NCBI GenBank assembly: GCA_012513515.1
Contig: JAAZCA010000026.1
Location: 1 to 28,841, forward strand
Direction of reading: 5' to 3'
Length of the DNA: 28,841 bases
Origin: Myxococcales bacterium
GTDB taxonomy: Bacteria > UBA10199 > 2-02-FULL-44-16 > JAAZCA01
The notes below the pieces were generated by a model. It was not told the DNA's origin. It ran no database searches and saw nothing but the letters and a program-made list of their open reading frames with translations. This document shows, one piece after another, positions 404 to 28,455 of the stretch. Numbering within the stretch: the stretch's first letter is position 1; each line of letters opens with the position of its first letter. A program made the position numbers and the translations under genes.

Positions 404-3400
404 ATGGTTGGAGCGATTACTGGCGGATGGCGCTTAATGTCAGGTATGAATTTTCAAACTCTGAGCAGTTTTCACAATCCGCTACAGGCCTATACGTATA
501 ATCCGGGCAAGGGGCTTTACCTCCCTCGCGAGATCAGGGATCCATTTCTCGCTCAGCCAGGCATGTCTCCGATCATGTCCGCATTTATGAGCGACCAAGG
601 CATTCGGACGACTTCGGACTTTGATCCGCACACCGTGCGGGTGACGGATGCTGGGAAGAATGTGCTATTCGATCCTCTTGAAGCAAGGTATGTATCCGAT
701 AGTGGTCGCACTGTTTCGCGAGAATCCCTCAAACATTCGGATGATGATCCGTACGCCACGTGGGTGACGGATGCCATGGGGAAGGTGTCATCCGATCCTG
801 ACGCCGCTGGGGAGGAGTTCAAGCGGATACGTATCAATATGGAGACCAATGACCGAGGAGTCGGCGGCGCTTTATATGGGATGGCCTCCTTTGGCGAGGC
901 GATATGGGGACAAGTCGATGAAGGGACTTTCGCGGCATTAAGAAATGTGAGGCTGGCGGCCGATGAAGAAAAAGACGAAACTACCCTCGCCAGAGAGCTT
1001 CTGATCCGCTCAGTTGCAAGCGCTAAAGTCGGCAATGATGAAGCCGCGCTTAACACGTTGCGGTTTGCAGTGGATAGTGAGGAGATGAAAAGTTCCGTTC
1101 CGCTGCAAATAACGAGTATGGTCATGTACGCCAACGTTCTCGTCAACCAAGGTTTTAAATACACCGGCGCGAAGAGAAACGAGGCACTGGAGTATCTCGG
1201 GGAGTTGATGAATGAAACGATTCCGGAGACTATACGGGAGGCAAAAGATGATTCATACGTCGCCGAGACGATGGAGTCCACGCTTCCGGATCTCTATGTT
1301 TATATAGCTGATTACTTTCTCGCACAGCACAGGCCGCTGGACGCGATGAACATCATCAATACCCTGAAAGAATATTATCCGGAACACCCGAAGACGCTGG
1401 CTCTTTTTGAGAACCCTTCCCCTGTGACGGGAGATGGCCCGAGCACGAAGGTAAGAACTCCGTTGCAGAACTTGATTGCAAGCCAGACTAGAGATCCCGA
1501 GGAGTCAGACCAGTCCTTCAATCACATTATTGCGGGCGCAGCAGAATTTTTGAGGACCTCCTCATTTGAAAACAACGTGGCTTATTGGAAGTCCGCGCTT
1601 TGCGGTGCCATACCGGCGTCGATAGCTGGCGCTGTGTACGGTTTCTTTTCAAATGGTTCGTTTTCCGCCGCCCTCATGGGCGCGGGACTGGGCGCTACGC
1701 TTTCCGTTGCCGCTTCAAAGATAAAGCGTGGAGCGACTTCTGAAGAGACGAGGCAGGCCTTCATTACCGGATACTCCGACACCAATCTCGGCCAGGTTGC
1801 ATTTTCTGAAACGATGAAGCTTCTTGCCACCTATGCGTTTTTTGGTGGTGCGCTTCCCCTGCTTAATTTTATGCCGGATTTTACCTTGGCAGCCAGCGGA
1901 AATTTTACGGGTCAGCTGTACGGGCCGGGCAGCGTCTTGTCGTATTTTGTGAGCTCTGCGACGGAAAGGATGAATCAGCTTGTCACCTCGATTTCGGATA
2001 CCAACTTTACCGACGGCTTCATGAATTTTTGGGATGGATGGAGAGCTACCAGCCCGTTCGCACAGGCGTTGCATAATGGCCTGACGCTTCCATTTCGACC
2101 ATCCACGGATATAGTGGAGATGCTTTTTCAGCGTTACTCGACCTGGGACAAGGCCGTTGAATTCTACAAGACACTTCCATCTGATGGATTGGCTGGCGCA
2201 GCTATCTCGGCGGCGTCGGCGGCGCTTGCTTCCTACGTGGGAGCGTCTGGCCTATATGCCATTTTCAGTATGAATCCTACCCTTGCCGCCTTCATGAAGG
2301 ACAAGCTGCCAAAGAACATAGACAGAAAACTTTTCCTAGGAGCCTATCTTGGGACCGTTGCGGGCATGGTCGCCTCGGGTTTTAATCCTCTTTCCGCATC
2401 CATTTTCACTCTGTTTTGTTATGCGGTTCAGTACCGCCATCACGTTCAGAGCGGGGGCGACTGGAGGATATACAAAAAGGATGTTTTTAGGGGCCTGGAT
2501 CTTTCAAAATTTATGAGGGCAGGTGCAATTCAGCTCTTATATATCGGACCCGGGAATGCGATAAAGCCGAATATCCCCAAGATCGACTGGATGGCCTCCA
2601 CTTTCCCCGAGATAACGAATTACCTCTTGGCAAACGTCGAGGCGCATATGGGGATGGTCCCGTTTCTCGCGGCGCTAGGCGTTTTCCACGCGGCGTTTAC
2701 TGGTCTCAACATCCGGCAGACCCTCCTGGCGAAATATGCAAAGGCATATACCTACGAGATCCCGGCAAACGTTTTGAAATTGAGCTTGGGATGGACATCG
2801 CTCGCCGGCAACGTCGCAGGAACGGCGATAAAGGAGTTTGGGATCGGGGCGAGCGTCACAGCGAGCTTCAGGGAGGCAGGAAATTCTCCGATTCAGCTGG
2901 ATGCTGTTATGGGCAACCTGAAGAAGATAGGTCTGGAGCGTAAAAATTTGGAGGCCGCAGTGCCTGAAGGGCTCGCCTCGCCATTCGTCAAACTGTATGA
3001 ACGGATGGCAGCCGAAGCCCTTGAAACGGAGAGGCAAGGAACCCTTGCGGCAAGATCAGGCGACGGAGCCAGATTCTTAAAGGATAACTATGCGATGCTT
3101 CCATTTCAGGAAAAGCTGATCAAGCTTACATCAAATTATTATGTAAGGTCCGATAGGTCGCCTTTCATACCTCCTCGTCCTGCCTCCAGTGAATACAACG
3201 ATGTCGTCTTTAGGGCGCTGGTTACCACCGAGACTCCTGGCGAAGTGGTTGACGAATATCTTTCGAGATTGCGCATCATTCTTACGGACTTGGATCCGGC
3301 GCTCGCCGATGTGCGCCACAACCTTTTGGTCGCTACAATTTGTGCTGTAGCAGGAGCGGCACATGGCGACAGGATAAAAGGCTTTTTGGATAGCGAAGAT

Positions 3401-4177
3401 GTCTGGTTGGTCATGCAGAGCTATGGACTCATTGCTCTCTACGAGAAGGTTGCTGAAAAACGGGGAACGTATGACAGTGAGGCATGGAAGGCTTTGAGAA
3501 TATTGCCAGGCAGTTCGAGGGGATTTATCGCCAAGCATTTCAGAAAACCGGTGCTTTCTCAGGAAGATAAATTCTATAATGCCGCTACAGTGCCAGGGAG
3601 GAGTTTCCCGTTCAGCGGCGTCGTCACTGGCAATTCGGTGGTTCAAAACGGGTCGCCACTCTTTGCTTTCTTGCTTTCCGCCATACAGGGGGATCCCGCA
3701 TTTGAAACCAAGGCCGATCCCACGTTTTTCAAAGGCACGCTGTACAAAATTTTGATGGGGAATCCTGCCAAAGCTGAAATGGGCATGGAACAGTACAGAG
3801 TTGAATATCTGTTACCCCTGCTTTCAGGGGTATTGAACTCTGCCTCGAAGCTGAACGATTCCAGATTTGACATACGCCATAATCTGTTGACGACTATATG
3901 GCTGGCTTCGAATGGCCCTCATTCTGAACTTCTAAAAAAGTGGATTGAGGAACACAAGCATCTGTACAATGCCCACGGCATCTACGGGGAACCGAAGATA
4001 GGCTCCAAGGTAGTCGCCCTGCCAAGGAGCCGGAGCTTGAAGGAAAGGCGGCTTATCAATGCCCTATTTAAGCAGTACCTCGTCAATTCGACAAATTCAG
4101 CGGACGGCAAGGTGCGGTACAATATGCCTCCAAAGGCTGGGCCTATGAGGTGGAGCAGCCTCGAGTCTCTCAAATAA
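404..4177 (+). CDS. Giant membrane protein of unknown function, with duplicated C-terminal domain
   Basis: 1257 aa; I do not recognise a named family. The ATG is preceded by GGAGG with 8-nt spacing. Residues about 73-135 hold two short related units (VTDAGKNVLFDP and VTDAMGKVSSDP). Residues about 190-330 look alpha-helical and TPR-like, with phrases such as LNTLRFAV and PLDAMNIINTLKEYYPEHP. Hydrophobic, Gly/Ala-rich segments follow at roughly 389-440, 470-500, 595-680 and 750-770 and are probable membrane helices. The C-terminal third (about 895-1225) is polar and holds two related units, marked by VRHNLLVATI near residue 968 and IRHNLLTTIW near 1155. The same unit occurs once in the 981-aa protein at 11214-14159, so the two are probably paralogues. 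No signal peptide or catalytic motif was seen. A strong terminator follows, so it is probably monocistronic. The coding call is secure; the function is unknown. Confidence 0.9.
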   Translation: MVGAITGGWRLMSGMNFQTLSSFHNPLQAYTYNPGKGLYLPREIRDPFLAQPGMSPIMSAFMSDQGIRTTSDFDPHTVRVTDAGKNVLFDPLEARYVSDSGRTVSRESLKHSDDDPYATWVTDAMGKVSSDPDAAGEEFKRIRINMETNDRGVGGALYGMASFGEAIWGQVDEGTFAALRNVRLAADEEKDETTLARELLIRSVASAKVGNDEAALNTLRFAVDSEEMKSSVPLQITSMVMYANVLVNQGFKYTGAKRNEALEYLGELMNETIPETIREAKDDSYVAETMESTLPDLYVYIADYFLAQHRPLDAMNIINTLKEYYPEHPKTLALFENPSPVTGDGPSTKVRTPLQNLIASQTRDPEESDQSFNHIIAGAAEFLRTSSFENNVAYWKSALCGAIPASIAGAVYGFFSNGSFSAALMGAGLGATLSVAASKIKRGATSEETRQAFITGYSDTNLGQVAFSETMKLLATYAFFGGALPLLNFMPDFTLAASGNFTGQLYGPGSVLSYFVSSATERMNQLVTSISDTNFTDGFMNFWDGWRATSPFAQALHNGLTLPFRPSTDIVEMLFQRYSTWDKAVEFYKTLPSDGLAGAAISAASAALASYVGASGLYAIFSMNPTLAAFMKDKLPKNIDRKLFLGAYLGTVAGMVASGFNPLSASIFTLFCYAVQYRHHVQSGGDWRIYKKDVFRGLDLSKFMRAGAIQLLYIGPGNAIKPNIPKIDWMASTFPEITNYLLANVEAHMGMVPFLAALGVFHAAFTGLNIRQTLLAKYAKAYTYEIPANVLKLSLGWTSLAGNVAGTAIKEFGIGASVTASFREAGNSPIQLDAVMGNLKKIGLERKNLEAAVPEGLASPFVKLYERMAAEALETERQGTLAARSGDGARFLKDNYAMLPFQEKLIKLTSNYYVRSDRSPFIPPRPASSEYNDVVFRALVTTETPGEVVDEYLSRLRIILTDLDPALADVRHNLLVATICAVAGAAHGDRIKGFLDSEDVWLVMQSYGLIALYEKVAEKRGTYDSEAWKALRILPGSSRGFIAKHFRKPVLSQEDKFYNAATVPGRSFPFSGVVTGNSVVQNGSPLFAFLLSAIQGDPAFETKADPTFFKGTLYKILMGNPAKAEMGMEQYRVEYLLPLLSGVLNSASKLNDSRFDIRHNLLTTIWLASNGPHSELLKKWIEEHKHLYNAHGIYGEPKIGSKVVALPRSRSLKERRLINALFKQYLVNSTNSADGKVRYNMPPKAGPMRWSSLESLK

Positions 4178-4257
4178 TCTACGGAGCGATGTCGCCGTTG
4201 TTCTATAGGAGAGGCGTTTCGGGGCGGCGTATTTGACAAATCAATCGGTTTTCAAGA

Positions 4258-4290
4258 GGCAGGCGGTCGATTGGCCGGCCTGCCTTTTTA
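4258..4290 (+). terminator. Rho-independent terminator after the 1257-aa gene
   Basis: A GC-rich hairpin, GGCAGGC (4258-4264) paired with GCCTGCC (4278-4284), is followed at once by TTTTT. It lies 81 nt after the stop codon and ahead of the next promoter, so it separates the giant-protein gene from the sugar cluster. Confidence 0.85.
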
Positions 4291-4303
4291 TGCCTTTCAT
4301 GGG

Positions 4304-4332
4304 TTGCTAAGCATCTCCGCTTCTGTTAGCCT
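4304..4332 (+). promoter_or_regulatory. Candidate promoter for the first OPA transporter
   Basis: TTGCTA (4304-4309) and TAGCCT (4327-4332) are separated by 17 nt, with an extended TG at 4324-4325. It falls between the terminator and the transporter start. The layout matches the candidate glyS promoter at 19723-19751. The -10 match to consensus is imperfect. Confidence 0.4.
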
Positions 4333-4370
4333 CCACGAAATTTTTCGAGAGTTTAAAAGGGAGATACGAA

Positions 4371-5657
4371 ATGTCTAAGGCGCTTTCCAAGGAGTTTATA
4401 CGCAGGAGAAGAATCAACTGGCTTTCATTGGCCTTTCTTTACGGTTCCTTTTACGCCTTGAGGTACAACCTGTCGCTGGCAAACAAATCGATCTGCGACG
4501 AGTACGGGTTTAGCAACGCCCAGTTCGGCCTTATTATCACGGCGACCTACGTGGCATACGCCATAGGACAGTTTGTGAATGGCCCGATCGTGGATCGCTT
4601 CGGCGGCAAGAAGATGATGCTCTTCGGCGCAGCCGGAACGATAATAGCCAACATCCTTTTCGGCATAAGCGCGTACACCGGCGTGCTGAACCTGTTCGTC
4701 GCTGTTTGGGTGTTAAATGGTTATATGCAGGCATACGGTTCTCCCGGAAATTTGAAGGTCAACGGAAGCTGGTTCGATACCAAAGAGCGCGGCCTCTTCG
4801 CTGGAATTTTTACCGCTGTCGTTTACTGCGGAAGACTTGCCATCATGATATTCGGGCCCCTCATCATAGCCAAATATCATTGGAAATGGGTCTTCATAGC
4901 GCCGGCGCTCGTAACAGTTCTAGTCTCTCTAGTCGTCTTGTTTTTTGTGAAGGAGACGCCTAAAGAGGCCGGCTTCGACGATATTGATTTTGCTCAGAGC
5001 AAGGTAGAAGAGGGGTCGCACGTAGGCTTTCTCACTTCTCTCAAGATAGTTCTTTCCAATAAATATATGTGGATAATGGGTTTCGCATATCTTTCGACGG
5101 GGGTCGTCAGAAATGGGCTCGAGCAGTGGTTTCCGAAATACCTGCAGGAAGTTCACAATATCATGCCGGGCTCCGTAAAATTTGGCGCGCAGGCGGTGCT
5201 GATGCCGATAGCCGCACTCTCTGGTGCGATAGTGGCCGGCTGGATTTCAGACAGGCTTTTTGCTGCCAGAAGAGGTCCGATAGTTGCGATCATGTATTTC
5301 GCGCAGGCGATTTTACTTTTGCTTTTCATCTTCGCAATAAATCCGCTTTGGTGTGGCATCCTTCTCATAATACTTTCATTCATGTTCAGTGGGCCGCATT
5401 CGATCGTAGGCAGCGCCGTGGCGATGGACTTCGGCGGCAGGGAGGCTACCGCTACCGCGCACGGCTTCGTCGATGCCATGCAGTACGTTGGCGCATCGCT
5501 CGTCGGCGTAGTCATGGGAAAGATAATAGATATTTTCGGTTGGAAGGGCTGGGGTCCGAGCCTCATAGCCTTCGCGGTTATGGGAGGACTCCTCATGTGC
5601 CTCGTATGGAACGTAAAGGGCGATCAAGTTGCCTGTAAAACAAGGGGAAAAAACTAA
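4371..5657 (+). CDS. MFS transporter, organophosphate:phosphate antiporter (OPA/GlpT-like) family
   Basis: 428 aa, the normal length for a 12-helix major facilitator. The N-terminus has the OPA signature region: the segment around YALRYNLSLANKS places an arginine (R31) in the first helix where GlpT uses R45 to bind phosphate. The loop between helices 2 and 3 reads DRFGGKK, the usual MFS motif A position, and a WFDTKERG segment follows helix 4. The central loop (about residues 195-220) is charged, and a second six-helix half follows with DRLFAARRGP as its motif A copy. OPA proteins import glycerol 3-phosphate or hexose phosphates in exchange for phosphate; the exact substrate cannot be read here. 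The start has a GGGAGA SD. The next gene is a sucrose-type glycosyltransferase 94 nt downstream, which suggests a sugar-phosphate substrate. Confidence 0.85.
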   Translation: MSKALSKEFIRRRRINWLSLAFLYGSFYALRYNLSLANKSICDEYGFSNAQFGLIITATYVAYAIGQFVNGPIVDRFGGKKMMLFGAAGTIIANILFGISAYTGVLNLFVAVWVLNGYMQAYGSPGNLKVNGSWFDTKERGLFAGIFTAVVYCGRLAIMIFGPLIIAKYHWKWVFIAPALVTVLVSLVVLFFVKETPKEAGFDDIDFAQSKVEEGSHVGFLTSLKIVLSNKYMWIMGFAYLSTGVVRNGLEQWFPKYLQEVHNIMPGSVKFGAQAVLMPIAALSGAIVAGWISDRLFAARRGPIVAIMYFAQAILLLLFIFAINPLWCGILLIILSFMFSGPHSIVGSAVAMDFGGREATATAHGFVDAMQYVGASLVGVVMGKIIDIFGWKGWGPSLIAFAVMGGLLMCLVWNVKGDQVACKTRGKN

Positions 5658-5751
5658 GCAACTTCCTGCGTTACAAAGCGATAAATCTGCGGGAATTGAG
5701 TTTGAGCATTGCTCGTGTGTTGTCGGTCCATCTTAAACAAAGGATGTTAGC

Positions 5752-7920
5752 ATGAACAGGCAGATCACGAAGGAAGGTATCTTAGACTCATTTGCTTACA
5801 GAACGTATAAAGAAATTTTTGAGAGGAACGGTGTCCAAACTATAGATCCATACAGCTTCGATTCTTTTTCCAACGAGCTTTCAAATCATCCCCCGATATT
5901 TATGATTCAGACTCAAGGGCATATGCCTAGAGTCAACTACATGGGCGCGAACAGCTCGCTAAGTCCTGCCGAGCGAGGTTGGGTTTCCTCAGGTACAGAT
6001 ACGGGAGGGCAAACCTTTTATGTGCTGGACGAGGCTATGGCGCTTGCGAAACTTGGGCACAGTATAGTGATCATAGCGCAGAGGTTCGACGACGGTCCTG
6101 CGTATCTCAATTGGTTCCAGCATAAAAGCGGCGGGAAGGTGGAGATAGTGAGGGTGCCGGCCGGTGGCATACAGGCGGGGGATCACGGAAAGCCTGTAAA
6201 AAGCCGGTATGAATTTGTCAGGAAAGAAGATCTGTATCCCAATCTGTATGGGACATCTGTCGATGTTTCAGCAATAGCCCTCCTCAGAGGGGCGTACGGT
6301 TTCATAGGAGGGTATGCCGACGGTGGGGTTGTAGCGGTTGCAGCGGGCCAGGCGCTTGGAAGACCGTCCATTTTCATTGCTCACTCGATGGGGCTGAGAA
6401 AACTTTCTCTTTCCGGAAGAGATGTAAGAGATCCGAATTCTTACTACGAATCAAAATTGTGGTTCGGTCCGAGGCTTCACGCGGAAAGGGCTTCGTTTTT
6501 AGGCGCCGATTTCGTGGTTGCCAACACTCCAGATGAAAACCGTGCTTACGCCGAGCTGTACGGAATAGATGTGCCGAATTCGCGGATGCTTCCTCCGGGC
6601 GTGAATCGAGCATTTTTCATAGACGAGTGTGATGAGCACGAGTGCTATCGCACGGCCGCGGCGCAGAAGGTCTCTGCGCACGATCTCAAAAGAGACAGAT
6701 ATTTCATGAGCTGGGGAAGGATTGCCCACGATAAAAATCTCGCAGGCCAAGTTCGAATACTCGGCGAACTCAAGGGAATGTATCCAGAAGAATATAAAGA
6801 TGTGAAGCTCCTAATGATAGGTGGGAATCCTGAGAATCCAACTGAAGAGGAAAGGGCCGAGATTCAGAAGGTGTGCGATGTGGCGGGTGAGTACGGGCTT
6901 GAAGTCAGCGCGAAAGGCGATATCGTCAGAATAGGAAATCTCGATTCCAGCGTCATAGCGCTTCTAGCTAAGGATGCCATCGCCTATCTCGGAACGCAAT
7001 TTCATGAGCCGTTTGGAATGGCCCCCGCCGAGATGCTTGCTGTCGGAGGAAAAGGATTCGTCGTTGTGCCTGAGGTATCTGGGTTTGCCAAGTGGATTAG
7101 AGCAAACGGCTTAGGTGATTCGGTTTCTATAATCGATCTCGGAACTAAAAGCGCCTCGCAGCAATTCGATATCGAGGCTTACAAAATAGCTGCGGAGAAG
7201 ATCCATTTGTTTAGGAAGCACCCCGATCTGAAAAAACGAATCGAAAGGGGCGCCAAATTCGCCGATGAGAATCTTAGATGGGAGAGGTTGGCTAGGACGA
7301 AGCTAGGCGTACTCCAAGATAGCGCGAAGGAGAAGGCTTTCAGGCCGAGCCTTTATCTGGCTATGCCTGCATGGTACAGGAGCCCACATACCATAGTGGA
7401 TGTCGCCACAGGGAACTTCCCGCGCATGCCATCGACTTCCGACCAGTCTCTTGCGTGGATGAGCGAAGTTGTCAAAGATATAGGTGGTCAGGTTGCAGGC
7501 TGGCTAATCAAAAACCCCTCAGCTTCGAGGAAGCTGATTACAGTTGATGGAGAGAACTCCGAGATTTTTGCCGATTTGCTGGCTGCTTCAATAGATTCGC
7601 CGACCTCCCGTGTTCAAAGAGTTGCAAGTGAGGTGTTGGGGAATGTCCCGCAAGAACTTATCAGGAGAACAATGCACTCTTCCAGATTCCATGACAGCGA
7701 TTTTGCGGTTTATGGAGGAGGCAAAGTCTTCCTCGAAGAAAACGCTAGGGTGTTCGTTACCAACCGTCCTAACTTAGTCGGGGATCTTCACATCGCCCTT
7801 GGGGCAAACGCGCTGAACGCTGCGACAGCCAACATAGTCGTAAGCGGACAGACATGGTATATGAATACAGCTATGCCTTGCTTTATGGCACTTGCTTCCA
7901 GAATGCCAGTGCTTCACTGA
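5752..7920 (+). CDS. GT4 glycosyltransferase, sucrose synthase / sucrose-phosphate synthase-like, with extra C-terminal domain
   Basis: 722 aa. The N-terminal Rossmann half holds GTDTGGQTFYVLDEA (D83-Q87), equivalent to the SDTGGQ motif of sucrose synthases and sucrose-phosphate synthases, and later HSMGLRKLSL, close to their HSLG..K motif. The C-terminal GT-B half holds GRIAHDKN (R323, K328: expected nucleotide-sugar phosphate contacts) and the E-x7-E pair E419/E427 in HEPFGMAPAE. A GT4 retaining transferase of the sucrose-synthesis type is therefore well supported; whether the acceptor is fructose, fructose 6-phosphate or another sugar is not. Residues about 530-722 form an extra region I cannot assign; it lacks the DxDxT motif of the HAD phosphatase fused to some bacterial SPS. 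SD AAGGA precedes the ATG. Sucrose phosphorylase follows downstream, supporting a sucrose role. Confidence 0.85.
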   Translation: MNRQITKEGILDSFAYRTYKEIFERNGVQTIDPYSFDSFSNELSNHPPIFMIQTQGHMPRVNYMGANSSLSPAERGWVSSGTDTGGQTFYVLDEAMALAKLGHSIVIIAQRFDDGPAYLNWFQHKSGGKVEIVRVPAGGIQAGDHGKPVKSRYEFVRKEDLYPNLYGTSVDVSAIALLRGAYGFIGGYADGGVVAVAAGQALGRPSIFIAHSMGLRKLSLSGRDVRDPNSYYESKLWFGPRLHAERASFLGADFVVANTPDENRAYAELYGIDVPNSRMLPPGVNRAFFIDECDEHECYRTAAAQKVSAHDLKRDRYFMSWGRIAHDKNLAGQVRILGELKGMYPEEYKDVKLLMIGGNPENPTEEERAEIQKVCDVAGEYGLEVSAKGDIVRIGNLDSSVIALLAKDAIAYLGTQFHEPFGMAPAEMLAVGGKGFVVVPEVSGFAKWIRANGLGDSVSIIDLGTKSASQQFDIEAYKIAAEKIHLFRKHPDLKKRIERGAKFADENLRWERLARTKLGVLQDSAKEKAFRPSLYLAMPAWYRSPHTIVDVATGNFPRMPSTSDQSLAWMSEVVKDIGGQVAGWLIKNPSASRKLITVDGENSEIFADLLAASIDSPTSRVQRVASEVLGNVPQELIRRTMHSSRFHDSDFAVYGGGKVFLEENARVFVTNRPNLVGDLHIALGANALNAATANIVVSGQTWYMNTAMPCFMALASRMPVLH

Positions 7921-7921
7921 T

Positions 7922-7942
7922 GTGAATGGCTATTCCATACAC
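7922..7942 (+). other. Small hairpin just after the glycosyltransferase stop
   Basis: GTG-A-ATGG (7922-7929) pairs with CCAT-A-CAC (7935-7942) around a 5-nt loop, with one A-A mismatch. It begins 2 nt after the stop codon. There is no T tract, so it is not a classical terminator. It could stabilise the upstream mRNA 3' end or pause transcription ahead of the promoter at 7951. Confidence 0.3.
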
Positions 7943-7950
7943 GTTTCGTC

Positions 7951-7978
7951 TTGCCTAAAAGCGGTGCGTCAATATACT
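7951..7978 (+). promoter_or_regulatory. Candidate promoter for sucrose phosphorylase
   Basis: TTGCCT (7951-7956) and TATACT (7973-7978) with a 16-nt spacer make a good sigma70-type pair. Transcription would start near 7985, about 34 nt before the ATG at 8019. This gives the phosphorylase a promoter independent of the upstream glycosyltransferase. Confidence 0.55.
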
Positions 7979-8018
7979 CCACAGAATGTAGTTGTATTCC
8001 GTTGAATGGAGATCTTTC

Positions 8019-9488
8019 ATGACGGTCAAAAATAAGGTTCAGCTCATAACGTATCCGGATTCGCTCGGCGGGGATCTGAGGACCCTCAACAGAGTTATGT
8101 TGGATTTTTTTCCAGATCTTTTCCAGGGCGGCGTGCACATACTTCCCCCTTTTCCATCCTCAGGGGACAGGGGTTTCGCTCCGCTGAGCTATTTTGAAAT
8201 CGATCCAAAATTTGGATCATGGGATGAGATACGCGCGATTTCGTCTCATGCGGACGTTCTTCTCGATCTAATGGTCAACCATGTATCGAAAGAGTCTCCA
8301 TACTTTCAGGATTTTTTGAAGCACGGAAGGTCTTCGCAATATGCAGACATGTTTCTCACTATCGACAAGATATGGGAGGATTCCGTCCCAAAAGAGGAAG
8401 ACATAGCCAAGATATTTTTGAGAAGGAAAGTCCCTTATTCAGAATTTGTTATTTCTGATACGGGCAAAACGGAGACGGTTTGGACTACCTTTGGGAAACA
8501 GAATCCCTCCGAGCAGATAGATGTGGATTTGAGTTCTGATACTGTAAAAAAACTTTTTGTCGATGTCCTTGAAAAGTTCAGCAAGAACGGAGTGAGGATA
8601 GTGAGGCTGGATGCCATAGGTTATATCATAAAGAAGATGGGCACGAGTTGCTTTTTCGTCGAACCTGAAATTTACAGTTTCATCGACTGGATAAACGGGG
8701 TTGCATCTTCTTTAGGTCTGGAACTCCTCCCTGAGGTGCACGCCCACCACTCGATTCAATTTAAACTCTCCAATCATGGATGCTGGATATACGATTTTAT
8801 ACTCCCCTATTTGGTGTTGGATGCCATGGTGAACAGATATTCGCGTAAGCTCGCCGAATATCTTGGGAGCCGACCTAAGAGGCAGTTTACGATGCTTGAC
8901 TGTCATGATGGCATACCGGTCAAACCCGACATGGACGGTCTTGTTAAAACCGACGATGCCAGAAAGCTGGTAGAACATTGCATGAAGATGGGGGCCAATC
9001 TCAGCCTTATATTTTCAGATAAGCACAAGGACCCCGACGGATTTGATGTCCATCAAATAAGATGCACCTATTACTCGGCGCTTGGCTGCGACGATGATGC
9101 ATACATAGCGGCAAGGGCCATTCAGCTTTTTACACCCGGGATTCCCCAGATCTACTACGTTGGTCTTCTGGCGGGAGAGAATGACTACGAGGGGGTCGAG
9201 GCTTCAAAGGAAGGAAGGGAAATCAACAGGCACAACTTTACTATCGATGAGATATCGCAGTGCATGGGCAAACCCGTCGTTCAGAGACTGATCAAACTGA
9301 TCAGGTTCAGAAATGAACATCCAGCCTTTGAAGGTAAATTTTCCGTCTTCTCTCCTTCGGAAAAGGAAATAAAACTTTCATGGAATAATGGGGGCGATTT
9401 TTGCTCGGTGCTTGTCAATATGTCCGACTATAGTTCGCAGGTGGAGTGTTCATCAGTGGGTTCGATCAAGAAAAGTTTCAAGGCATAA
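8019..9488 (+). CDS. gtfA: Sucrose phosphorylase (GH13_18)
   Basis: 489 aa. Catalyses sucrose + phosphate to alpha-D-glucose 1-phosphate + fructose in the cytoplasm (EC 2.4.1.7). The protein opens KNKVQLITYPDSLGGDL, and GGVHILPPFP, DLMVNHVSKES, RLDAIGY, LPEVHAHH, LDCHDGI and YYSALGCDDDAYIAARAIQ follow in the family order. The expected catalytic triad is complete: nucleophile D198, acid/base E239 and transition-state stabiliser D297. Length is close to the roughly 500 aa of characterised enzymes. Related GH13_18 phosphorylases act on sucrose 6-phosphate or glucosylglycerate, but the overall pattern here is closest to the true sucrose enzyme. I chose the ATG at 8019 because GGAGA lies 6 nt upstream; an in-frame TTG at 7992 would add 9 residues but has no SD. 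It is convergent with the second OPA transporter. Confidence 0.92.
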   Translation: MTVKNKVQLITYPDSLGGDLRTLNRVMLDFFPDLFQGGVHILPPFPSSGDRGFAPLSYFEIDPKFGSWDEIRAISSHADVLLDLMVNHVSKESPYFQDFLKHGRSSQYADMFLTIDKIWEDSVPKEEDIAKIFLRRKVPYSEFVISDTGKTETVWTTFGKQNPSEQIDVDLSSDTVKKLFVDVLEKFSKNGVRIVRLDAIGYIIKKMGTSCFFVEPEIYSFIDWINGVASSLGLELLPEVHAHHSIQFKLSNHGCWIYDFILPYLVLDAMVNRYSRKLAEYLGSRPKRQFTMLDCHDGIPVKPDMDGLVKTDDARKLVEHCMKMGANLSLIFSDKHKDPDGFDVHQIRCTYYSALGCDDDAYIAARAIQLFTPGIPQIYYVGLLAGENDYEGVEASKEGREINRHNFTIDEISQCMGKPVVQRLIKLIRFRNEHPAFEGKFSVFSPSEKEIKLSWNNGGDFCSVLVNMSDYSSQVECSSVGSIKKSFKA

Positions 9489-9520
9489 AAAATCGGGGAT
9501 ATGTGTTGGATATATCCCCG
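9487..9520 (-). terminator. Terminator for the minus-strand OPA transporter
   Basis: CGGGGATAT (9494-9502) pairs with ATATCCCCG (9512-9520) around a 9-nt loop. Read on the minus strand the stem is followed by a T run (the A tract at 9487-9492). It lies 26 nt past the end of the minus-strand gene. On the plus strand no T run follows, so it would act weakly if at all on the phosphorylase mRNA. Confidence 0.8.
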
Positions 9521-9546
9521 AATCTATCTAGGTCTGTTGCCCACCG

Positions 9547-10881
9547 TTATTTTATCTTCTTGATGTGAGGCGATCGCTTATTCCAAGTCATCGCGAATAG
9601 TATGGAGCCAAGAAATGCCGCCCCGGCAAAGAAATATATGCCTCCGGCCCATCCGTACTTGTCAACGAGAAGCCCGGTTCCAAGTCCTGAAATAGCGGCT
9701 CCGATATATCCGAAAGCGCCGGTAACTCCGGCCGCCGTAGAGGCGGCTTGTTTACAAGCGAAGTCCGTAGCTGCAACCGGGACGAGAAGCTGTGGACCAT
9801 AGACGAGAATGCCGGCTGCTATCAGAAGAGCTGTATCGATCATCGGTCTGCCCGGAGGGAGTATCCAGAGCAACGATACGACGACTCCGAGGAGAATCAT
9901 CGAGATCGTTGCGAGGGGCCCTCGCCTTCCTCTGAAAATTTTGTCAGAGACCCATCCAGCCCCGATTGCGCCGAGCATCCCTGCCAGCTCGAATGCCGCT
10001 GTTTTGAATCCGGCGCCAACTAGGCCCGACCCTCTCGCTTCGGTGAGGAATGTGGGAGCCCAGTCCATTATGCCAACCCGGACCACGTAGACGAATATGT
10101 TGGCGGTGGCGACGATCCATAGAAGTCTGTTTCGGAATATGTGGTCCTTCATTATCACCATGAAGGGTTTTGTGTCTCCGGCATCTGGGTCCGCTTCGGT
10201 GGTTTCCCCGCGGTGTTTTTCTATCGGAGGAAGGCCGACGGATTGCGGGGTGTCACGAAGCCGGTTGATCAGCCAGAAAGATGTTAAAATCGCTATCGCT
10301 GCCGGAATGTAGAAGGAGAATCTCCATCCATAACGGGGTATGAGCCATCCGGCGAAGACCATTATTCCGGCTCCGCCTATCTGATGCGCCGTGCTCTGTA
10401 TCCCCCATATGGTTCCGAGTTCAGTAGGGCTGAACCATCTTGTGAGAAGTCTTACGCTGGCGGGCATGCCGAGAGACTGCACCCAAGCGTTTAACAGCCA
10501 GAAAAATCCAAAGGCCATTATTCCGCTGCTCATTCCAAAAAAGAAATTGATTACGCCGGAAAGCAGAAGTCCGAATGCCATCAGATATCTGGCGTTGGTG
10601 TAGTCGCCAAGGACGCCGTTTACGAATTTACCGATTCCGTAAAGTATCGCAAAGAGAGTCAGTATAGCTCCAAAATCGGTCTTTGTGTAACCGAGTTCCT
10701 GAAGCATGACAGGCATGGCCATCGAGAAATTTTTTCTCACAAAATAGTAGATGGCGTAACCGACGACCATACCGTATAGGTTGCGAGTTCTAAAATGCTT
10801 GTAGAGCCTCTTTCTTTCCTCCGGATCCTCTATTTGAGGGATATAGGGGGCTGGCTTTATGAGGGAGATTAAGCTTGCCAT
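9547..10881 (-). CDS. GlpT/UhpT/UhpC-like OPA family sugar-phosphate or glycerol-phosphate transporter
   Basis: 444 aa, 12-helix MFS of the organophosphate:phosphate antiporter family. The N-terminus (FKPAP-like IKPAP segment, then GYAIYYFVRKNFSMAMP) closely follows E. coli GlpT, and R49 corresponds to the GlpT phosphate-binding R45. The central loop reads RDTPQSVGLPPIE, again GlpT/UhpT-like. This is clearly nearer to GlpT/UhpT than the OPA protein at 4371. Whether it carries glycerol 3-phosphate or hexose 6-phosphate, or senses rather than transports (UhpC-like), is not decidable here. The ATG at 10881 has CGGAGG 6 nt upstream. It is convergent with sucrose phosphorylase and ends before a dedicated terminator. 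Confidence 0.88.
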   Translation of the reverse strand: MASLISLIKPAPYIPQIEDPEERKRLYKHFRTRNLYGMVVGYAIYYFVRKNFSMAMPVMLQELGYTKTDFGAILTLFAILYGIGKFVNGVLGDYTNARYLMAFGLLLSGVINFFFGMSSGIMAFGFFWLLNAWVQSLGMPASVRLLTRWFSPTELGTIWGIQSTAHQIGGAGIMVFAGWLIPRYGWRFSFYIPAAIAILTSFWLINRLRDTPQSVGLPPIEKHRGETTEADPDAGDTKPFMVIMKDHIFRNRLLWIVATANIFVYVVRVGIMDWAPTFLTEARGSGLVGAGFKTAAFELAGMLGAIGAGWVSDKIFRGRRGPLATISMILLGVVVSLLWILPPGRPMIDTALLIAAGILVYGPQLLVPVAATDFACKQAASTAAGVTGAFGYIGAAISGLGTGLLVDKYGWAGGIYFFAGAAFLGSILFAMTWNKRSPHIKKIK

Positions 10882-11213
10882 CTAGGGCCTCCGTTTGGAA
10901 TGTAAGCGCGCGTTTTTTATCCAAAAATAAAGATTCGGAATACTATCCTTCGAACTTCGGAAAGCAAGCAATTATTTTCCGCATCTGCTTAGTTGCAGGC
11001 TCTAATTTCCGACCTTGTAGTCTCCTCCATTTGCTCGGCCACTGCACTCTTGGTGCGGTTGCAGCGGTATATGGGTGTAAAACGCCGATTTTGCGGCCTT
11101 TACTGTTGCCTAAGAGGACGAAAAGGAAAAAGGTAGCAACTTTTCCCTGCCATGGTCGAAAAAGCTGGCGGAAATAGGTTTTAGGCCAATATTTAACTAA
11201 CGCCGAGGATTTG
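10882..11213. other. 332-nt divergent intergenic region
   Basis: It separates the minus-strand OPA gene from the 981-aa gene and must hold both promoters, but no convincing hexamer pair was found. Several short complementary arms occur: CTGCA (11042-11046) with TGCAG (11060-11064), and GTTGC (11105-11109) with GCAAC (11136-11140), the latter followed by TTTT. A small RNA or attenuated leader is possible but not shown. The string AGCAACTTTTCCCTGC (11135-11150) resembles AGCAACTTCCTGC at 5657-5669. Confidence 0.4.
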
Positions 11214-14159
11214 ATGCGCGCTTCTGCACCGTTTTTTTCGTCGATCTTTCCGATGGCAAGCAGTTTTTCTGCCAATACCTATGCCTCCCCCGTATCTTCA
11301 CCATTTCTTGCTTATGATCTTTTGAATGATCCGGCGATCAATGCTGCGCGCCCCTCCTTTTTGACCTCTCCGATAGCAAGGGCGAATGTCGTTTCATCTA
11401 TACATGGTGAAATAGATACTCTGAATCTTTATCTGTCGGAAGCCTACAAGGCTCATTCCTCTCTTGATCCGGAGGCGGCGCGAAGCTGTTTCAAAAAGGC
11501 CAGTGCTATTTTGGAATCCCGATTTGAGCCCTCCGCAGGTTATGAGGTTCGCATACTGGATGTAATAGATGACGGCAGGAGACTTCATCGTGAGGCCGTC
11601 TTCGGAGCGGCGGCCTATGTTACTCCCAATGATGCCGTGGAAACCCTCAAGTCGTTAAATGGCATCATAGCTGATTTAAGCAAGGAATCTTCGGATGCCT
11701 CTGGCGTTGACCTGGTCAGGGCTAATTTGCTCAAGGCTTTTGCTTTGATGAAACACACATCTGCCTTCACTATCCAAAGGTCCGAACGCTACGAATCGGT
11801 GGAGAGATTGATCGGCGAGGTTCTAGAAAATCCCGCTTCTCAAGAAGATGACAATATCGTTTTTTCAGCCAGAGCCCTTTTATTGGAGTCCTTGGCAAGG
11901 CAGACTGAGAGAGCTCATCACAGGAGAGATTTCAAGGCGAGAAAAGTTCTGCTCGGGAAAATGATGGCCGCGGCCGACGATCTTGCGAAGATGGGGGTCG
12001 AGCTCTCTTCCGGCCATGTCGATATAGCCGCTAGGTACGAGGAGCGCATCATCTCTCTGCTCATCGGTATGAAGACTTGGGCGCTGGGGTTGGACAGAGC
12101 TAGGCGTTTTACCGAAAATGGAATCTACGCCACAACGGATTCCTCGCGTTCCGTGCTCTCCATGCCGGAGCTTTCGCCATATATTGAGGACGGAAGAATT
12201 CTCAGCAGGGAGGAGTTGAAAGCCAGGTCCCCTTTTCTCAAGGGGCTCATCGCCAGGATAAAAGCGGCTCTTGCCAATGCGCATTCCGAGAGCCTTTCAC
12301 AGAGTGTAATGATTGGAGGAGTTGCGGCTGCCGCTACGATGGCGGCGGATTTTATGTTTGATGGAAGGATAGAGTCGGCTGTCGTCCCCGCAATGATTGC
12401 CGGGGGAGCCTCCCTTTTCAATAAGTTGAGAAATGGGTGGAACACCGATGAGGCGCTCTCCGCCGCTTCGATAGGGCTTTATGAGAGAAGCATGAAAGAG
12501 TCCATCAGCGATGTCGCCGGTCTTGCCTTGAAAGGCGGCCTCGAAATAGGCGCGTGGCTTGCCCCGACCTCCCTCGCTCAAATTTTGCCCGAGGCCTCAT
12601 TGCTCACCACGACTATACTGGGCAGGGCATTTCAGATGTACGGCAGTTTCTTTTCCGGCGCTGCAAGGGGAGCCATGGCGCTATATGATCCTGCGACATA
12701 TTCGAACATCGCGGGCAGTTTTGATTCATCCCTTTCAATCGGAGATGCCGTCTCTTTCCTACTGAAGGCTTATGAAGCGGGGGCTGCCACCCAGTACCTC
12801 GGATATCTTTTATTTCCCAAACGAAGGCGCTTTTTGGCCAAGACGGCAAAATTTTTCATCCCAGGGGCTGTTATCTTGGGAGCTGATCTCGGTATGGCGA
12901 TATCAGGCAATGACGATTTCTGGGACAGGTTCATAAGGGGTTCGATATCCATTGCTGAAGGGACATCGATGCTTATGGCCGCTGGCGTCATAGCCCTCGC
13001 GAGGACTAAATCCTTTAAAGATTCCATTTCGTCCATGGTCAGCGGGCTAAAAAGGGCGGATCACAATGCGCTGGTTGCAATAGCTCTCACCGTCGGGGTT
13101 TCATCCGCGATGGGCGGTGTTATGACAAAGGGGTTGCCCAAACCCGACAATATGGCCCTCATCGCCATCAAGGGAGCTGCCGTCACGCTGGGACTCTTGC
13201 CGATCACGATACTTATCAGCGGAGTAATGAAAAGGAATGTGGAGCTTTTCGACAACATAAAAGAGGGATGGGATGATTCGAAGGGGACCGGATTTTTCAA
13301 TCGCCTTGTCCAGTCGGCGATCGGCGGAGTGAATTCATTCTGGACTCCGTATGTATTCAATCGGGTCGGGAGATCCCCGACTCTGGACGTTCCGAGCGCC
13401 GCTCTCAGGACCTATATAGGTTGGGATACAAATGTAGGATACTCTTCATTTGTTGGGGTAAATTTTGTCTTTACGAATCCGGCCGCAACGATGGTTTTTC
13501 CCGAGACCGGCGGTGTCGAATGGGAGAGGGCGGCATTCGTAGAGATGTTGGAGCATGGACGTCATGACGAAGTGATAGACCATTGGATAAAGGCCTCACA
13601 GCGAATGCCGCTCAGCCATTTTTTCAGGCCGCATAATCTTTCAGATAAATTTTTCCCGCTGACGGCCGTAAGAAGAATAGTGAGACCTCCGATTTTTCCG
13701 TTGATGCCGCAGGCCCATTATTTTGGGGCGCTTGAGCAGCTGCTGGAGGGCGGTTATCTCAACTCGCTTGGAAAGTCAGAAATGAAGACGATGTTTGAAG
13801 CGATATTGCAGTTCGCCGACGCAGCTTTTGCACCGGCGTCCGATATCGACGAAGAAGCGAAAAAAGCGATGCACCAGGATGTTTTGAGGCCGCTTATCCA
13901 GACCCTGTACATGGCGAGGCAGAACGAGGCAAATGGCGAAGCTATTTCGGAATTCTTTGCCGAGAATTCATGGCTCATGGACATGCTTGCGATAGATGGC
14001 AACTCCACTCCTGCTCCTGGAGGAAGGTATAGAAGGCAGCGCAGGTCTTTTGTAAGAAAAGTAGTGAAGATGAACGGTGCGCGATACGATGAGCATGTCA
14101 GGGAGCACTCTGCCAGAAAGAGGGCTCCCCTCCTTGGCCCCGACGCTTTCAGCCTCTAG
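11214..14159 (+). CDS. Large membrane protein of unknown function, paralogue of the 1257-aa protein
   Basis: 981 aa from the ATG at 11214, which has GAGG 5 nt upstream; a TTG codon just before it is not needed. Not a recognised family. Residues about 60-300 are charged and helical, possibly TPR-like (PEAARSCFKKASAILESRF). Gly/Ala-rich hydrophobic segments lie near 362-382, 390-405, 441-480, 551-565, 583-600, 619-637 and 647-672 and probably span or enter the membrane. The soluble C-terminal part (about 799-960) has the order HFFRPHNLSDKFFPLTAV, PPIFPLMP, then LIQTLYMARQ and ISEFFAENSWLM. This parallels HFRKPVLSQEDKFYNAATV, SFPFSGV, LLTTIWLAS and LLKKWIEEHKHLY in the 1257-aa protein. The last 45 residues are strongly basic. 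Its 3' end overlaps the convergent symporter gene by 11 nt. Confidence 0.9.
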   Translation: MRASAPFFSSIFPMASSFSANTYASPVSSPFLAYDLLNDPAINAARPSFLTSPIARANVVSSIHGEIDTLNLYLSEAYKAHSSLDPEAARSCFKKASAILESRFEPSAGYEVRILDVIDDGRRLHREAVFGAAAYVTPNDAVETLKSLNGIIADLSKESSDASGVDLVRANLLKAFALMKHTSAFTIQRSERYESVERLIGEVLENPASQEDDNIVFSARALLLESLARQTERAHHRRDFKARKVLLGKMMAAADDLAKMGVELSSGHVDIAARYEERIISLLIGMKTWALGLDRARRFTENGIYATTDSSRSVLSMPELSPYIEDGRILSREELKARSPFLKGLIARIKAALANAHSESLSQSVMIGGVAAAATMAADFMFDGRIESAVVPAMIAGGASLFNKLRNGWNTDEALSAASIGLYERSMKESISDVAGLALKGGLEIGAWLAPTSLAQILPEASLLTTTILGRAFQMYGSFFSGAARGAMALYDPATYSNIAGSFDSSLSIGDAVSFLLKAYEAGAATQYLGYLLFPKRRRFLAKTAKFFIPGAVILGADLGMAISGNDDFWDRFIRGSISIAEGTSMLMAAGVIALARTKSFKDSISSMVSGLKRADHNALVAIALTVGVSSAMGGVMTKGLPKPDNMALIAIKGAAVTLGLLPITILISGVMKRNVELFDNIKEGWDDSKGTGFFNRLVQSAIGGVNSFWTPYVFNRVGRSPTLDVPSAALRTYIGWDTNVGYSSFVGVNFVFTNPAATMVFPETGGVEWERAAFVEMLEHGRHDEVIDHWIKASQRMPLSHFFRPHNLSDKFFPLTAVRRIVRPPIFPLMPQAHYFGALEQLLEGGYLNSLGKSEMKTMFEAILQFADAAFAPASDIDEEAKKAMHQDVLRPLIQTLYMARQNEANGEAISEFFAENSWLMDMLAIDGNSTPAPGGRYRRQRRSFVRKVVKMNGARYDEHVREHSARKRAPLLGPDAFSL

Positions 14160-15951
14160 AATAAGGTTCGACTATGTAGTTTACTCCTTCATGCTCAATA
14201 GCTGCACGACTCTCTGCGGGTTTTGTCTTTGACTCCGAGCTTATCCTGTGGAGCAGAAAGCCTCCTGAAATTACGGCTATGACGCCAAGCGCCGTTGCGA
14301 GTTCATACTTCGCCAGAAGAAAGCCGCCTATGGCGAAATTGAAAGTGGCGAAGAACAAGATGCCAACGAGAGTATTGACTATCGCTCTTGCTGCAAACCC
14401 GCCGGATTTTATGCCGTACTTTTTGTAAATATAATTCCATCCCGGCGATCCGGGCTGAATCTTTTCAACGAATGCCACGAGAACTTTCTCATCCACGGGT
14501 TTGGTCAAGAAGGTAACAGTCAGCCATACTACTGCCGAAAGAACGACGTTTATTATTATCTTGTAGCCGAATCCCATATCTGGGTGGAAGATCGAAATGT
14601 ATATAGCGATTATTCCGGATGAGATCATGCCTGAAAATTCAGACCAGGCGTTGATGCGCCACCAGAACCAGCGTAGCACCCAGGTGACTCCTGCGCCGCT
14701 GGCAAAGGATATTATGAACTTCCATGAATCGCCGACCGATTTCATGTTGAGCGAAATCAGAATAGCTATGCCGAGGCTGAGTACAGTAGCGACTCTAGAC
14801 ATTCCGACGTAATGTTTTTCCGAGGCGTTTTTCACGAGAAAGCGGCGGTAGATGTCGTTGATCATATACGATCCGCCGAGGTTGATGTGGGTGGATATCG
14901 TTGACATGAATGCCGCGATCAGGGAGACAAGCATGATCCCCAGGATGCCGTGCGGCAGCCATTTCGCCATCATCCAGACGTAGGTCATTTCCGGGTCGGC
15001 TATGTCACGGCCGTAAATTGTCAGGGCGCAGAGCGCTACTATGATCCATGGCCAGGTTTGAATCGCATAATTCATCACCGTGAAAAAGAACGTGGCGAGC
15101 GTAGCGTGCTTTTCATTTTTTGCAGCGGACATGCGCTGGATATGTTTTCCTCCGCCGTCGGAATATTTCTGCGACCACCACTGTACGAGGATATAGACGA
15201 GAAAGGCGCTCATCGGAACGCCCTTGAATATCTGGGAGGTCGAATCCCAGCTCGGCACGAAGGAGAGTGCTCCGCTGTTTTCGCCGAACATGCTGTTGAT
15301 CGTGGCAACGAGCTGTTCGGTTCCGCCGGCCCCCTTGAGCGAATAGTACATAAGGGCGAATGATCCTAAGAGACAAAAACCGTACTGGATGAAATCGGTG
15401 AGGATCACTCCGTATAGTCCCGAGGCTAGGGAATATACAGTCACAGCTACCGCAGACCCTACGACTATCCAGAACGGATCTATATTGGTGAAACCTCTGA
15501 GGACCTTGAATACCGCCAAGAATACCCATCCCATCACGAAGCAGTTGACGAGAATCCCGAAATAGCATCCCTTGAATACCCGCAGCGCTGCTGCCGGTTT
15601 TCCGCTATATCTTCTTTCCACGATCTCCGCGTCGGTCATCACCTGTGCCTTCCTCCACATCTTGGCGAAGAAAAATGTGGCAACCATTCCGGATATCGCC
15701 GATGACCAGAAAAACCATACTCCTCCGACGCCTTCTGTGAATACGTATTTTGTGATAGCGAGAGGGGTATCTATTGAAAAATTTGTTGCAGCCATCGATG
15801 CGCCGATAAGCCACCACGGCATGCTTCTACCGGTGAGGAAGAATTGATCCACATCCTTCGATGCGCGCTTTGTATAGTAAAACCCGAGCACTATACATAC
15901 GACGGTGTAAATCGCCATAATCCAGTAGTCGATTGCTGCTAGAACTCTCAT
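14149..15951 (-). CDS. Sodium:solute symporter (SSS family)
   Basis: 600 aa. SSS proteins couple Na+ entry to uptake of a sugar, amino acid, vitamin or anion through the LeuT fold. The family start is clear: IDYWIMAIYTVVCIVLGFYYTKR, then DQFFLTGRSMPWWLIGASMAATNFSIDTP, the conserved GR..PWW...S..A motif with helix 1 unwinding. Further on are DFIQYGFCLLGS and LVSLIAAFMSTISTHINLGGSYMINDIYRRF, the family helix 8 region that carries Na2-site serines. About 13-15 hydrophobic segments are visible, with extra helices at the C-terminus as in sugar-type members. The substrate cannot be assigned. ATG has GGAGG 4 nt upstream. It follows the Na+/phosphate cotransporter by 28 nt and is likely co-transcribed with it. 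Confidence 0.88.
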   Translation of the reverse strand: MRVLAAIDYWIMAIYTVVCIVLGFYYTKRASKDVDQFFLTGRSMPWWLIGASMAATNFSIDTPLAITKYVFTEGVGGVWFFWSSAISGMVATFFFAKMWRKAQVMTDAEIVERRYSGKPAAALRVFKGCYFGILVNCFVMGWVFLAVFKVLRGFTNIDPFWIVVGSAVAVTVYSLASGLYGVILTDFIQYGFCLLGSFALMYYSLKGAGGTEQLVATINSMFGENSGALSFVPSWDSTSQIFKGVPMSAFLVYILVQWWSQKYSDGGGKHIQRMSAAKNEKHATLATFFFTVMNYAIQTWPWIIVALCALTIYGRDIADPEMTYVWMMAKWLPHGILGIMLVSLIAAFMSTISTHINLGGSYMINDIYRRFLVKNASEKHYVGMSRVATVLSLGIAILISLNMKSVGDSWKFIISFASGAGVTWVLRWFWWRINAWSEFSGMISSGIIAIYISIFHPDMGFGYKIIINVVLSAVVWLTVTFLTKPVDEKVLVAFVEKIQPGSPGWNYIYKKYGIKSGGFAARAIVNTLVGILFFATFNFAIGGFLLAKYELATALGVIAVISGGFLLHRISSESKTKPAESRAAIEHEGVNYIVEPYSRG

Positions 15952-15979: not shown

Positions 15980-17635
15980 TTATTTCAGCGCCGCAGCTGC
16001 CCTGGCTATCTTTGCGAGCCTCGCATTTACTAGGCGTAGCTGGCTTATCAGTTCGAGATGTATCGTGCTCGTCTCATGGCTTTCAGCGCGCATCTCGTTC
16101 AACCTCATCAGATGTGAATGTCTGAGATCGCGTTCTATGTCGTCCATGTAACGTTCGTGGCGCTGTATCTTCCTGAAGATATCCTCGTCGGGGTGAACCA
16201 TCATTGCCATCGTCAGATCGAAATTTTCACTTATCAGAGAAAACAGCTTTTCGAGTTCTGCCCATCCTTCTTCTGAAAAACGAACCATCTTTTTTCGCTT
16301 TTTGAACGACAGCGCGACTATGTCCTTTGAAACAATGTCGCCTATCGCCTCTATTTCGTCCCCGATGCTCAGAAGCGACATCTGCGTCTGCGACTGATTT
16401 TCTGTCAGGCTTTTCTGTGATATTTTGGCTATGTAAAATCTTATGGCCTTTTCGAGAACATCAATCCTGTCGTCGTCATTTTCAATGCTCTCGACGATTC
16501 CCTGGTGATCGACGTTCGTATGAAATATTTTTAGCGAGAGTTTGAACATCATCCTTGCGATCTGCGCGATGCGCATCGTTTCGCTCTTTGCCTGCGCGAA
16601 GGCCAATGCAGGGGTCTCCAGCGCCGCTTCATCGATGTACTTAGGTTTGAATCTCTTTTCTCCTATATCGCGGTAGGGGATGAGCTTTTGGATCATCCAG
16701 ACGAATGGCCCTGCGAGTGGCATGAATAGTATTGCGAGAAAAGCGTTGAACGTTATGTGGGTGAGGGCGATTTTGCCGGACGCTGCGAGCGCAGGCAGGA
16801 TGCTCTGATTGGTTATTACATGATCGATCCTATCTATGAGAGCGGCGAACTGGTCCAGAAACGGGAATACTATCGCTACGCCCATGAGTTTTACCATCAC
16901 GTGCGCAAGGGCCACCTGCCTGCCGCGTATTCCCATTCCAAAGCACGAGAGTCCCGCAGTCACGCACGTTCCGATGTTCGCGCCCAGCACGATCGGGATG
17001 GATGTTTCGAATGTCAGGACTCCTGAATACGAGAGCGCTATCGCAAGCCCTATCGTCGCAGCCGAAGAATGTATCAACCCGCTGAATATCGTTGCGAATA
17101 TTATGTTCCAGAACGGGTTTTTCGCCAGAAACTGGAATATCGTGATTGCCGCTTCGCTTTCCCTGAGAGGGGTGGCAGCTGATGTCATCAGGCCCATTCC
17201 AAAGAAGATCATTCCGAAGCCGAGGATTATCGCGCCGACGTATTTCACCATCGGAACCTTGGAAAGTTTTTCGAGTGCGATGCCGAGCGCTATTACCAGA
17301 AGCGCGTAGTGGGTTATTTTCTTAAAGGTCAGGAGGATGACCACGAAGGTCGTTCCGATATCCGCGCCGAGTATCACGCCGAATGCCTGCGTCAGGGTTA
17401 TTAGCTGTGCTTCTGCGAAGCTTACGAGTATTACCGTGGTGGCGGTGGAGCTCTGCAGGACTATCGTGATCAGCGCTCCGAAAATCAGAGCGAAAAAACG
17501 ATTCTTGGTCATCTTGCCGAGCAGCATTCTCAGGCGTTCGCCTGCCGCGAGCTGCAGGCCCTGCCTTGCGGAATCGAGTCCGAAGAAGAAGAAGGCGAGG
17601 CCGCCAAGCATCGAAATCCAGTCGAAAGCCCCCAC
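15980..17635 (-). CDS. Na+/phosphate cotransporter (NptA/PNaS family) with PhoU-like C-terminal domain
   Basis: 551 aa. The two inverted Na/Pi repeats are visible: QSSTATT (61-67) with GADIGT (90-95), and HSSAAT (189-194) with GANIGT (218-223). These paired motifs define the family and line the Na+ and phosphate sites. The membrane part ends near residue 330. The C-terminal 200 residues are helical and polar (phrases such as LLSIGDEIEAIGDIVSKDIV) and fit a PhoU-like domain, the usual architecture of bacterial NptA/YjbB proteins. The start is GTG at 17633-17635 with AGGAG 7 nt upstream. It probably imports phosphate with Na+, though some homologues work in export. It forms a two-gene unit with the SSS gene. 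Phosphate supply would suit the phosphorolytic sugar enzyme and phosphate-exchanging OPA carriers in this window. Confidence 0.9.
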   Translation of the reverse strand: MGAFDWISMLGGLAFFFFGLDSARQGLQLAAGERLRMLLGKMTKNRFFALIFGALITIVLQSSTATTVILVSFAEAQLITLTQAFGVILGADIGTTFVVILLTFKKITHYALLVIALGIALEKLSKVPMVKYVGAIILGFGMIFFGMGLMTSAATPLRESEAAITIFQFLAKNPFWNIIFATIFSGLIHSSAATIGLAIALSYSGVLTFETSIPIVLGANIGTCVTAGLSCFGMGIRGRQVALAHVMVKLMGVAIVFPFLDQFAALIDRIDHVITNQSILPALAASGKIALTHITFNAFLAILFMPLAGPFVWMIQKLIPYRDIGEKRFKPKYIDEAALETPALAFAQAKSETMRIAQIARMMFKLSLKIFHTNVDHQGIVESIENDDDRIDVLEKAIRFYIAKISQKSLTENQSQTQMSLLSIGDEIEAIGDIVSKDIVALSFKKRKKMVRFSEEGWAELEKLFSLISENFDLTMAMMVHPDEDIFRKIQRHERYMDDIERDLRHSHLMRLNEMRAESHETSTIHLELISQLRLVNARLAKIARAAAALK

Positions 17636-27316: not shown

Positions 27317-27348
27317 TACTGACATTCGGGTACAAACTTGATACCTGT

Positions 27349-27882: not shown

Positions 27883-27903
27883 TTACTCATATCAATATGT
27901 ACT

Positions 27904-28134: not shown

Positions 28135-28167
28135 ATGAAGGACTATAAATACCTCTGGCCTTTATAG

Positions 28168-28193
28168 ATATGGTATGATAGACTATACCATAT
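28168..28193. promoter_or_regulatory. Palindromic operator between divergent repressor and rightward genes
   Basis: Perfect 9-bp arms ATATGGTAT (28168-28176) and ATACCATAT (28185-28193) flank an 8-nt spacer. It is 34 nt upstream of the repressor start and 35 nt upstream of the gene at 28228, inside AT-rich DNA that should hold both promoters. Binding by the XRE protein is inferred. Confidence 0.65.
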
Positions 28194-28227
28194 GTAAGAA
28201 CATGATAACTATGGAGATATTGAATTA

Positions 28228-28449: not shown

Positions 28450-28455
28450 ATCGCA

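Follow-up and report, generated by a model that had tools for sequence, protein, structure and literature searches.

The window, that is the whole analysed stretch of 28,841 nucleotides from a Myxococcales bacterium, raises the question why a small set of sugar-phosphate and sucrose genes lies between two genes for very large proteins. The original prediction regarded these as giant membrane proteins of one unnamed family, whose placement around the sugar genes could be due to chance or mark a lineage-specific system, and put forward profile-profile comparison and a search for further copies and their neighbours as checks.

Judged by their sequences, protein A (1257 aa) and protein B (981 aa, read from the ATG at position 11214) are distant homologues and represent two clades of one previously unnamed family. 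Direct BLASTP comparison of the two was not significant (the best hit, at E 0.012, was out of register), whereas alignment of an A-type with a B-type profile (four and nine members, respectively) gave an HHalign probability of 99.8% and E=2e-30 over 791 columns, as the relatives bridge A and B where plain BLAST misses the homology. Single-linkage BLAST connects all A-type and B-type members, and the two types are set apart with full support in a maximum-likelihood tree. No Pfam or NCBIfam model matches A or B, the B profile found nothing of weight among the PDB sequences, and literature searches turned up neither such a family nor such a system. Protein A is preceded by a good Shine-Dalgarno sequence (GGGAGGTTGGAGAG). 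A role in anti-phage defence was rejected, the nine B-type members having no match among the PADLOC models.

The collinear pattern originally noticed in the C-termini is real and its motif pairs are genuine, since an A-type profile built without A recovers both A (residues 1050-1195, 56.4 bits, iE 4e-17) and B (residues 787-938, 17.1 bits), while 600 shuffled sequences reached at most 2.4 bits. The pairing itself needs adjustment: the stretch of A that had been aligned with B (HFRKPVLSQEDKFYNAATV ... LLTTIWLASN) belongs to the second copy of a duplicated domain, which was also matched at 3575-3988 (E 3e-14), and it is the first copy (residues ~880-1015) that is in full collinear register with B. 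The coordinates of these and all other features are compiled in Table 1.

Table 1. Features of the window, with positions counted from its first nucleotide
Feature	Position	Strand	Basis or remark
Protein A, A-type member of the new family	404..4177	+	whole gene; without Pfam/NCBIfam match
A, C-terminal helical domain, first copy (~residues 880-1015)	3041..3448	+	alignment of 13 members; A-type HMM without A
A, C-terminal domain, second (duplicated) copy (residues 1050-1195)	3551..3988	+	56.4 bits
MFS organophosphate/sugar-phosphate:phosphate antiporter-like (PgtP/UhpC/GlpT group)	4371..5657	+	Pfam/NCBIfam models
GT4 glycosyltransferase related to sucrose-phosphate synthase, with C-terminal extension	5752..7920	+	TIGR02472, 49 bits, far under cut-off
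GH13 sucrose phosphorylase (gtfA type)	7992..9488	+	TIGR03852
Second MFS sugar-phosphate antiporter-like (UhpC/GlpT group), divergent from B	9547..10881	-	Pfam/NCBIfam models
Protein B, B-type member of the new family	11214..14159	+	whole gene
B, alpha-solenoid (TPR-like), residues 60-340	11388..12230	+	AlphaFold; VIA-align
B, Gly/Ala-rich, moderately hydrophobic helical centre (~residues 360-670)	12288..13220	+	hydropathy
B, C-terminal helical domain common to A (residues 787-938)	13569..14024	+	alignment and HMM
Sodium:solute symporter (SSF)	14149..15951	-	close homologue also beside the G002 giant (A-type)
Na/Pi cotransporter with PhoU domain	15980..17635	-	likewise adjoins the giant in G002

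AlphaFold, run with four sequences, yielded a confident model of B only for residues 60-340, which form a helical solenoid (pLDDT mostly 68-91), while residues 1-57 are predicted to be disordered (very low pLDDT). In VIA-align, residues 62-308 matched the TPR domain of LGN with a best Z of 16.1 (3.6 Å over 210 residues), although matches between helical repeats often reflect no more than their arrangement. The likeness to LGN-type TPR and other alpha-solenoid scaffolds does not extend to sequence, as all models of the 34-residue TPR signature stayed under their cut-offs for the 13 members (E 0.097 and 0.2 at best), nor does it extend to the other 650 residues of B, which match nothing found. 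Modelled alone, residues 340-982 had a mean pLDDT of 45, at which the lack of a match is uninformative, and gave weak fold matches to helical repeats of the HEAT/ARM kind (Z <7). When the whole B model was submitted to Foldseek, the matches were solely importin-like long solenoids (TM ~0.15). An enzymatic role is made less likely by the residues that hardly vary across the 13 members from both clades: most are Gly, Pro, Ala, Leu, Trp or Phe, polar ones are few, and no catalytic set could be recognised among them. Of the common layout put forward originally, the helical N-terminus is supported by the AlphaFold model of B, and the Gly/Ala-rich centre stands, yet it is just moderately hydrophobic. 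A giant of this family would be a large, mainly alpha-helical protein that starts with a charge-poor disordered leader and continues through a TPR-like solenoid and a Gly/Ala-rich hydrophobic helical middle to a small C-terminal domain, likewise helical.

The search for further copies covered 46 genomes of the window's class, which in this data set is also its whole phylum, a small uncultivated groundwater lineage that may correspond to GTDB UBA10199. About 16 copies were found in seven genomes, and G003 alone has at least six. The window genome itself (G000, 1.79 Mb, 99% complete) encodes a third relative, of the A-type, on contig C19; the A-type is further represented in G001 and G002, and the B-type in G003, G004, G007 and G036. 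Six of the seven carriers come from the window's order, and the seventh, G036, stems from another family of the class, the other searched members of which have no giants. The family was not found in 14 genomes taken from other parts of the domain, on viral contigs or on plasmids, and a three-row profile search of genome contigs hit just two contigs, both from MAGs named 'Deltaproteobacteria bacterium', at least one of them from groundwater.

In the window, the genes for protein A, the first MFS protein, the GT4 and the GH13 enzyme share one strand, and the gaps between them are 193, 94 and 71 bases. The GH13 enzyme is a sucrose phosphorylase by the curated equivalog cut-off of TIGR03852 (507 versus 334 bits) and the sole copy in the 46 genomes. 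The arrangement resembles operons for sucrose-phosphate synthase (SPS) and sucrose phosphorylase in having an SPS-like GT4 together with a true sucrose phosphorylase, but the GT4 enzyme remains far under the equivalog-domain cut-off of TIGR02472 (49 versus 576 bits) and is not SPS by that test. To our knowledge, known sucrose operons carry no such giant.

Sugar genes recur with the giants elsewhere. GT4, GH13, GalT, PMI/ManC, maltokinase or UhpC/GlpT-type genes are present at 8 of the 12 giant loci, spread over all seven genomes. The order GalT-giant-GT4-UhpC/GlpT, with an SPS-like GT4, is identical in G007 and G036 and hence kept between two families of the class; in G036 the gaps are near zero and the genes almost touch or overlap. 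The same SPS-like GT4 and MFS proteins accompany the giants on G003 C22 and G004 C30, together with genes for mannose-6-phosphate isomerase (PMI, PMI/ManC) and nucleotidyltransferase, one of which (L037:3-4331) joins PMI, GT4 and nucleotidyltransferase in a single product at least 1443 aa long. A fusion of glucosamine-6-phosphate isomerase, PIG-L deacetylase and phosphoglucomutase/phosphomannomutase (942 aa) is encoded at L029:1112-3937. In G002 the giant is located between a GT4 gene and an SSF plus Na/Pi pair like that of the window. The A-type giants on G000 C19 and in G001 lie beside a GlgM-type glycogen synthase, a maltokinase-like protein and GH13-type proteins; these clusters resemble GlgM/maltokinase alpha-glucan gene sets in that the GlgM-type GT4 scores above its cut-off, but differ by the extra giant and by a maltokinase-like protein that stays under the cut-off of its model. 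The end of the G001 giant is overlapped by a gene for a 360-aa protein without Pfam match (L030:7042-8124), which by eye recalls the ChaN/Tiki type. No sugar genes are found near the giants at four loci of G003 (C72, C94, C54 and C111), and the role of the giants may therefore be broader than sugar. On C94, two B-type giants occur in tandem (L034:6375-13358), and the contig also encodes, at a distance of about 10 kb, a peptidase and unknown proteins with leaders similar to those of the giants.

The sugar setting of the giants is not chance. SPS-like GT4 genes were detected in five of the 46 genomes, all of them carriers (5/7 carriers, 0/39 non-carriers; Fisher 1.5e-5), and maltokinase in two carriers and one non-carrier, so that either gene is present in 7/7 carriers and 1/39 non-carriers (Fisher 1.5e-7; p=0.012 within the order alone). 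As the Fisher tests ignore kinship and the traits were picked from the giants' own neighbours, these figures are support rather than proof. Together with the eight sugar-gene loci, they support the lineage-specific system, one of the two options initially offered for the placement. The giants are a real, new and lineage-restricted family with a non-random sugar association, from which we infer their function. Since the family recurs inside sugar-phosphate and storage-sugar operons, its members probably serve as dedicated helpers of these pathways.

What kind of help this could be is suggested by the encoding of a non-enzymatic solenoid protein in several different sugar operons, which points to an organiser. 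We tentatively propose, as a reading that could well prove wrong, that the giants are non-enzymatic scaffolds, perhaps docked at the membrane, which gather the operon enzymes and the sugar-phosphate antiporter. Each giant would organise one sugar-phosphate or disaccharide/alpha-glucan pathway; its solenoid would bind the pathway enzymes, the hydrophobic middle would self-assemble or attach to the inner membrane next to the antiporter of UhpC/GlpT type, and synthesis and transfer of the product would be local. Scaffolding, docking and channelling are what we infer from the different pathways at the giant loci, the homology of the giants, the TPR-like solenoid, the conserved residues, the near-zero gaps and the co-occurrence, all of which speak for this reading, and the enzyme fusions at giant loci fit selection for proximity. 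The four sugar-free loci of G003 speak against it, and the confident part of the B model does not reach the middle and most of the C-terminus. If it is true, the lineage possesses a protein machine of its own that organises disaccharide and storage-glucan metabolism and uses a separate giant per pathway, as a case of natural metabolic channelling. Even if it is false, a new protein family has been recognized, and its operon partners provide the first functional handle on about 16 unannotated giants.

The linkage could also be historical, with the giants doing something unrelated, e.g. at the surface, in predation or in interaction with other cells, and merely travelling with sugar genes. The sugar-free copies in G003, including the tandem pair, and the patchy distribution would agree with this, but the association recurs in both clades with different pathways and the genes are separated by near-zero gaps, and we consider a purely historical linkage unlikely.

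A third explanation depends on how hydrophobic the giants are. When segments with a family-mean KD hydropathy of at least 1.3 were counted by the same measure on all family alignments, MFS proteins had 10, SSF proteins 12 and soluble enzymes 0-1, compared with four in B-type and one in A-type giants. The four conserved segments of the B-type lie between residues ~550 and 670 and are joined by weaker ones. The centre of the B-type is thus placed between soluble enzymes and true transporters, while that of the A-type is nearly soluble-like. The designation as giant membrane proteins is not established by these numbers: from segment counts of four versus one, membrane association appears plausible for the B-type and is unsupported for the A-type. 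Marginally hydrophobic helices could nevertheless form a pore or carrier for a disaccharide, a disaccharide-phosphate or a glucan product, and transporter genes do adjoin the giants. We regard such a translocator or channel as rather unlikely because the single segment of the A-type falls inside the soluble-enzyme range, the operons already contain MFS or SSF transporters, and the known transporter families in Pfam and NCBIfam have no match to the giants.

Nearly all giants start with a charge-poor leader rich in Pro, Ser and Thr that lacks the hydrophobicity of a signal peptide. Leaders like these were also noted at L028:5781-8150, L028:12638-14158, L035:9279-11033, L061:11773-13614 and L061:13716-15140, where they belong to two linked GH13-type enzymes, a linked PMI, an M4-like peptidase and one protein of unknown kind. 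They possibly represent a shared sorting or docking tag. A motif, G-[TNS]-[IQVL]..P..F..P, is found in three leaders versus 0.11 expected in shuffles, but carries little weight as it was written after the leaders had been seen. In its widest form, the scaffold reading would describe a new class of sugar organiser, in which lineage-specific giants, each with its own pathway, assemble leader-tagged enzymes and the sugar-phosphate antiporter in a storage compartment or in a metabolon docked at the membrane; we doubt that the proposal holds to this extent. The leaders on giants and linked enzymes and the glucan-type gene sets are also what would be expected if the giants coated, or seeded the formation of, a storage body or a compartment bounded by protein that takes up sugar or glucan, the leader targeting the cargo enzymes. 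This appears improbable, as no shell family in Pfam matches, the motif was defined post hoc and some cluster enzymes have no leader. A type III-like route could also export giants and leader-bearing enzymes into a host or a vacuole, as in Chlamydia, where phosphoglucomutase is secreted and Glc6P imported (PMC9251005). This is very improbable despite the unstructured Ser/Thr/Pro-rich leaders and the UhpC-like antiporters, because a search for the FHIPEP component revealed no dedicated injectisome in the carriers, six of which have a single FHIPEP, the number present in most non-carriers and expected for a flagellum, while G003, which has the most giants, lacks FHIPEP at a completeness of 96%.

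Two further features of these loci deserve mention. The GT4 enzymes of the window (in the C-terminal third) and of L029:6013-8289 possess long C-terminal extensions without Pfam domain. At the contig end, the window carries genes that by eye look phage-derived (25528-28839), encoding small and large terminase-like, metallopeptidase-like and thermonuclease-like proteins, the last cut by the window end, and this region is probably a prophage or a remnant of one.
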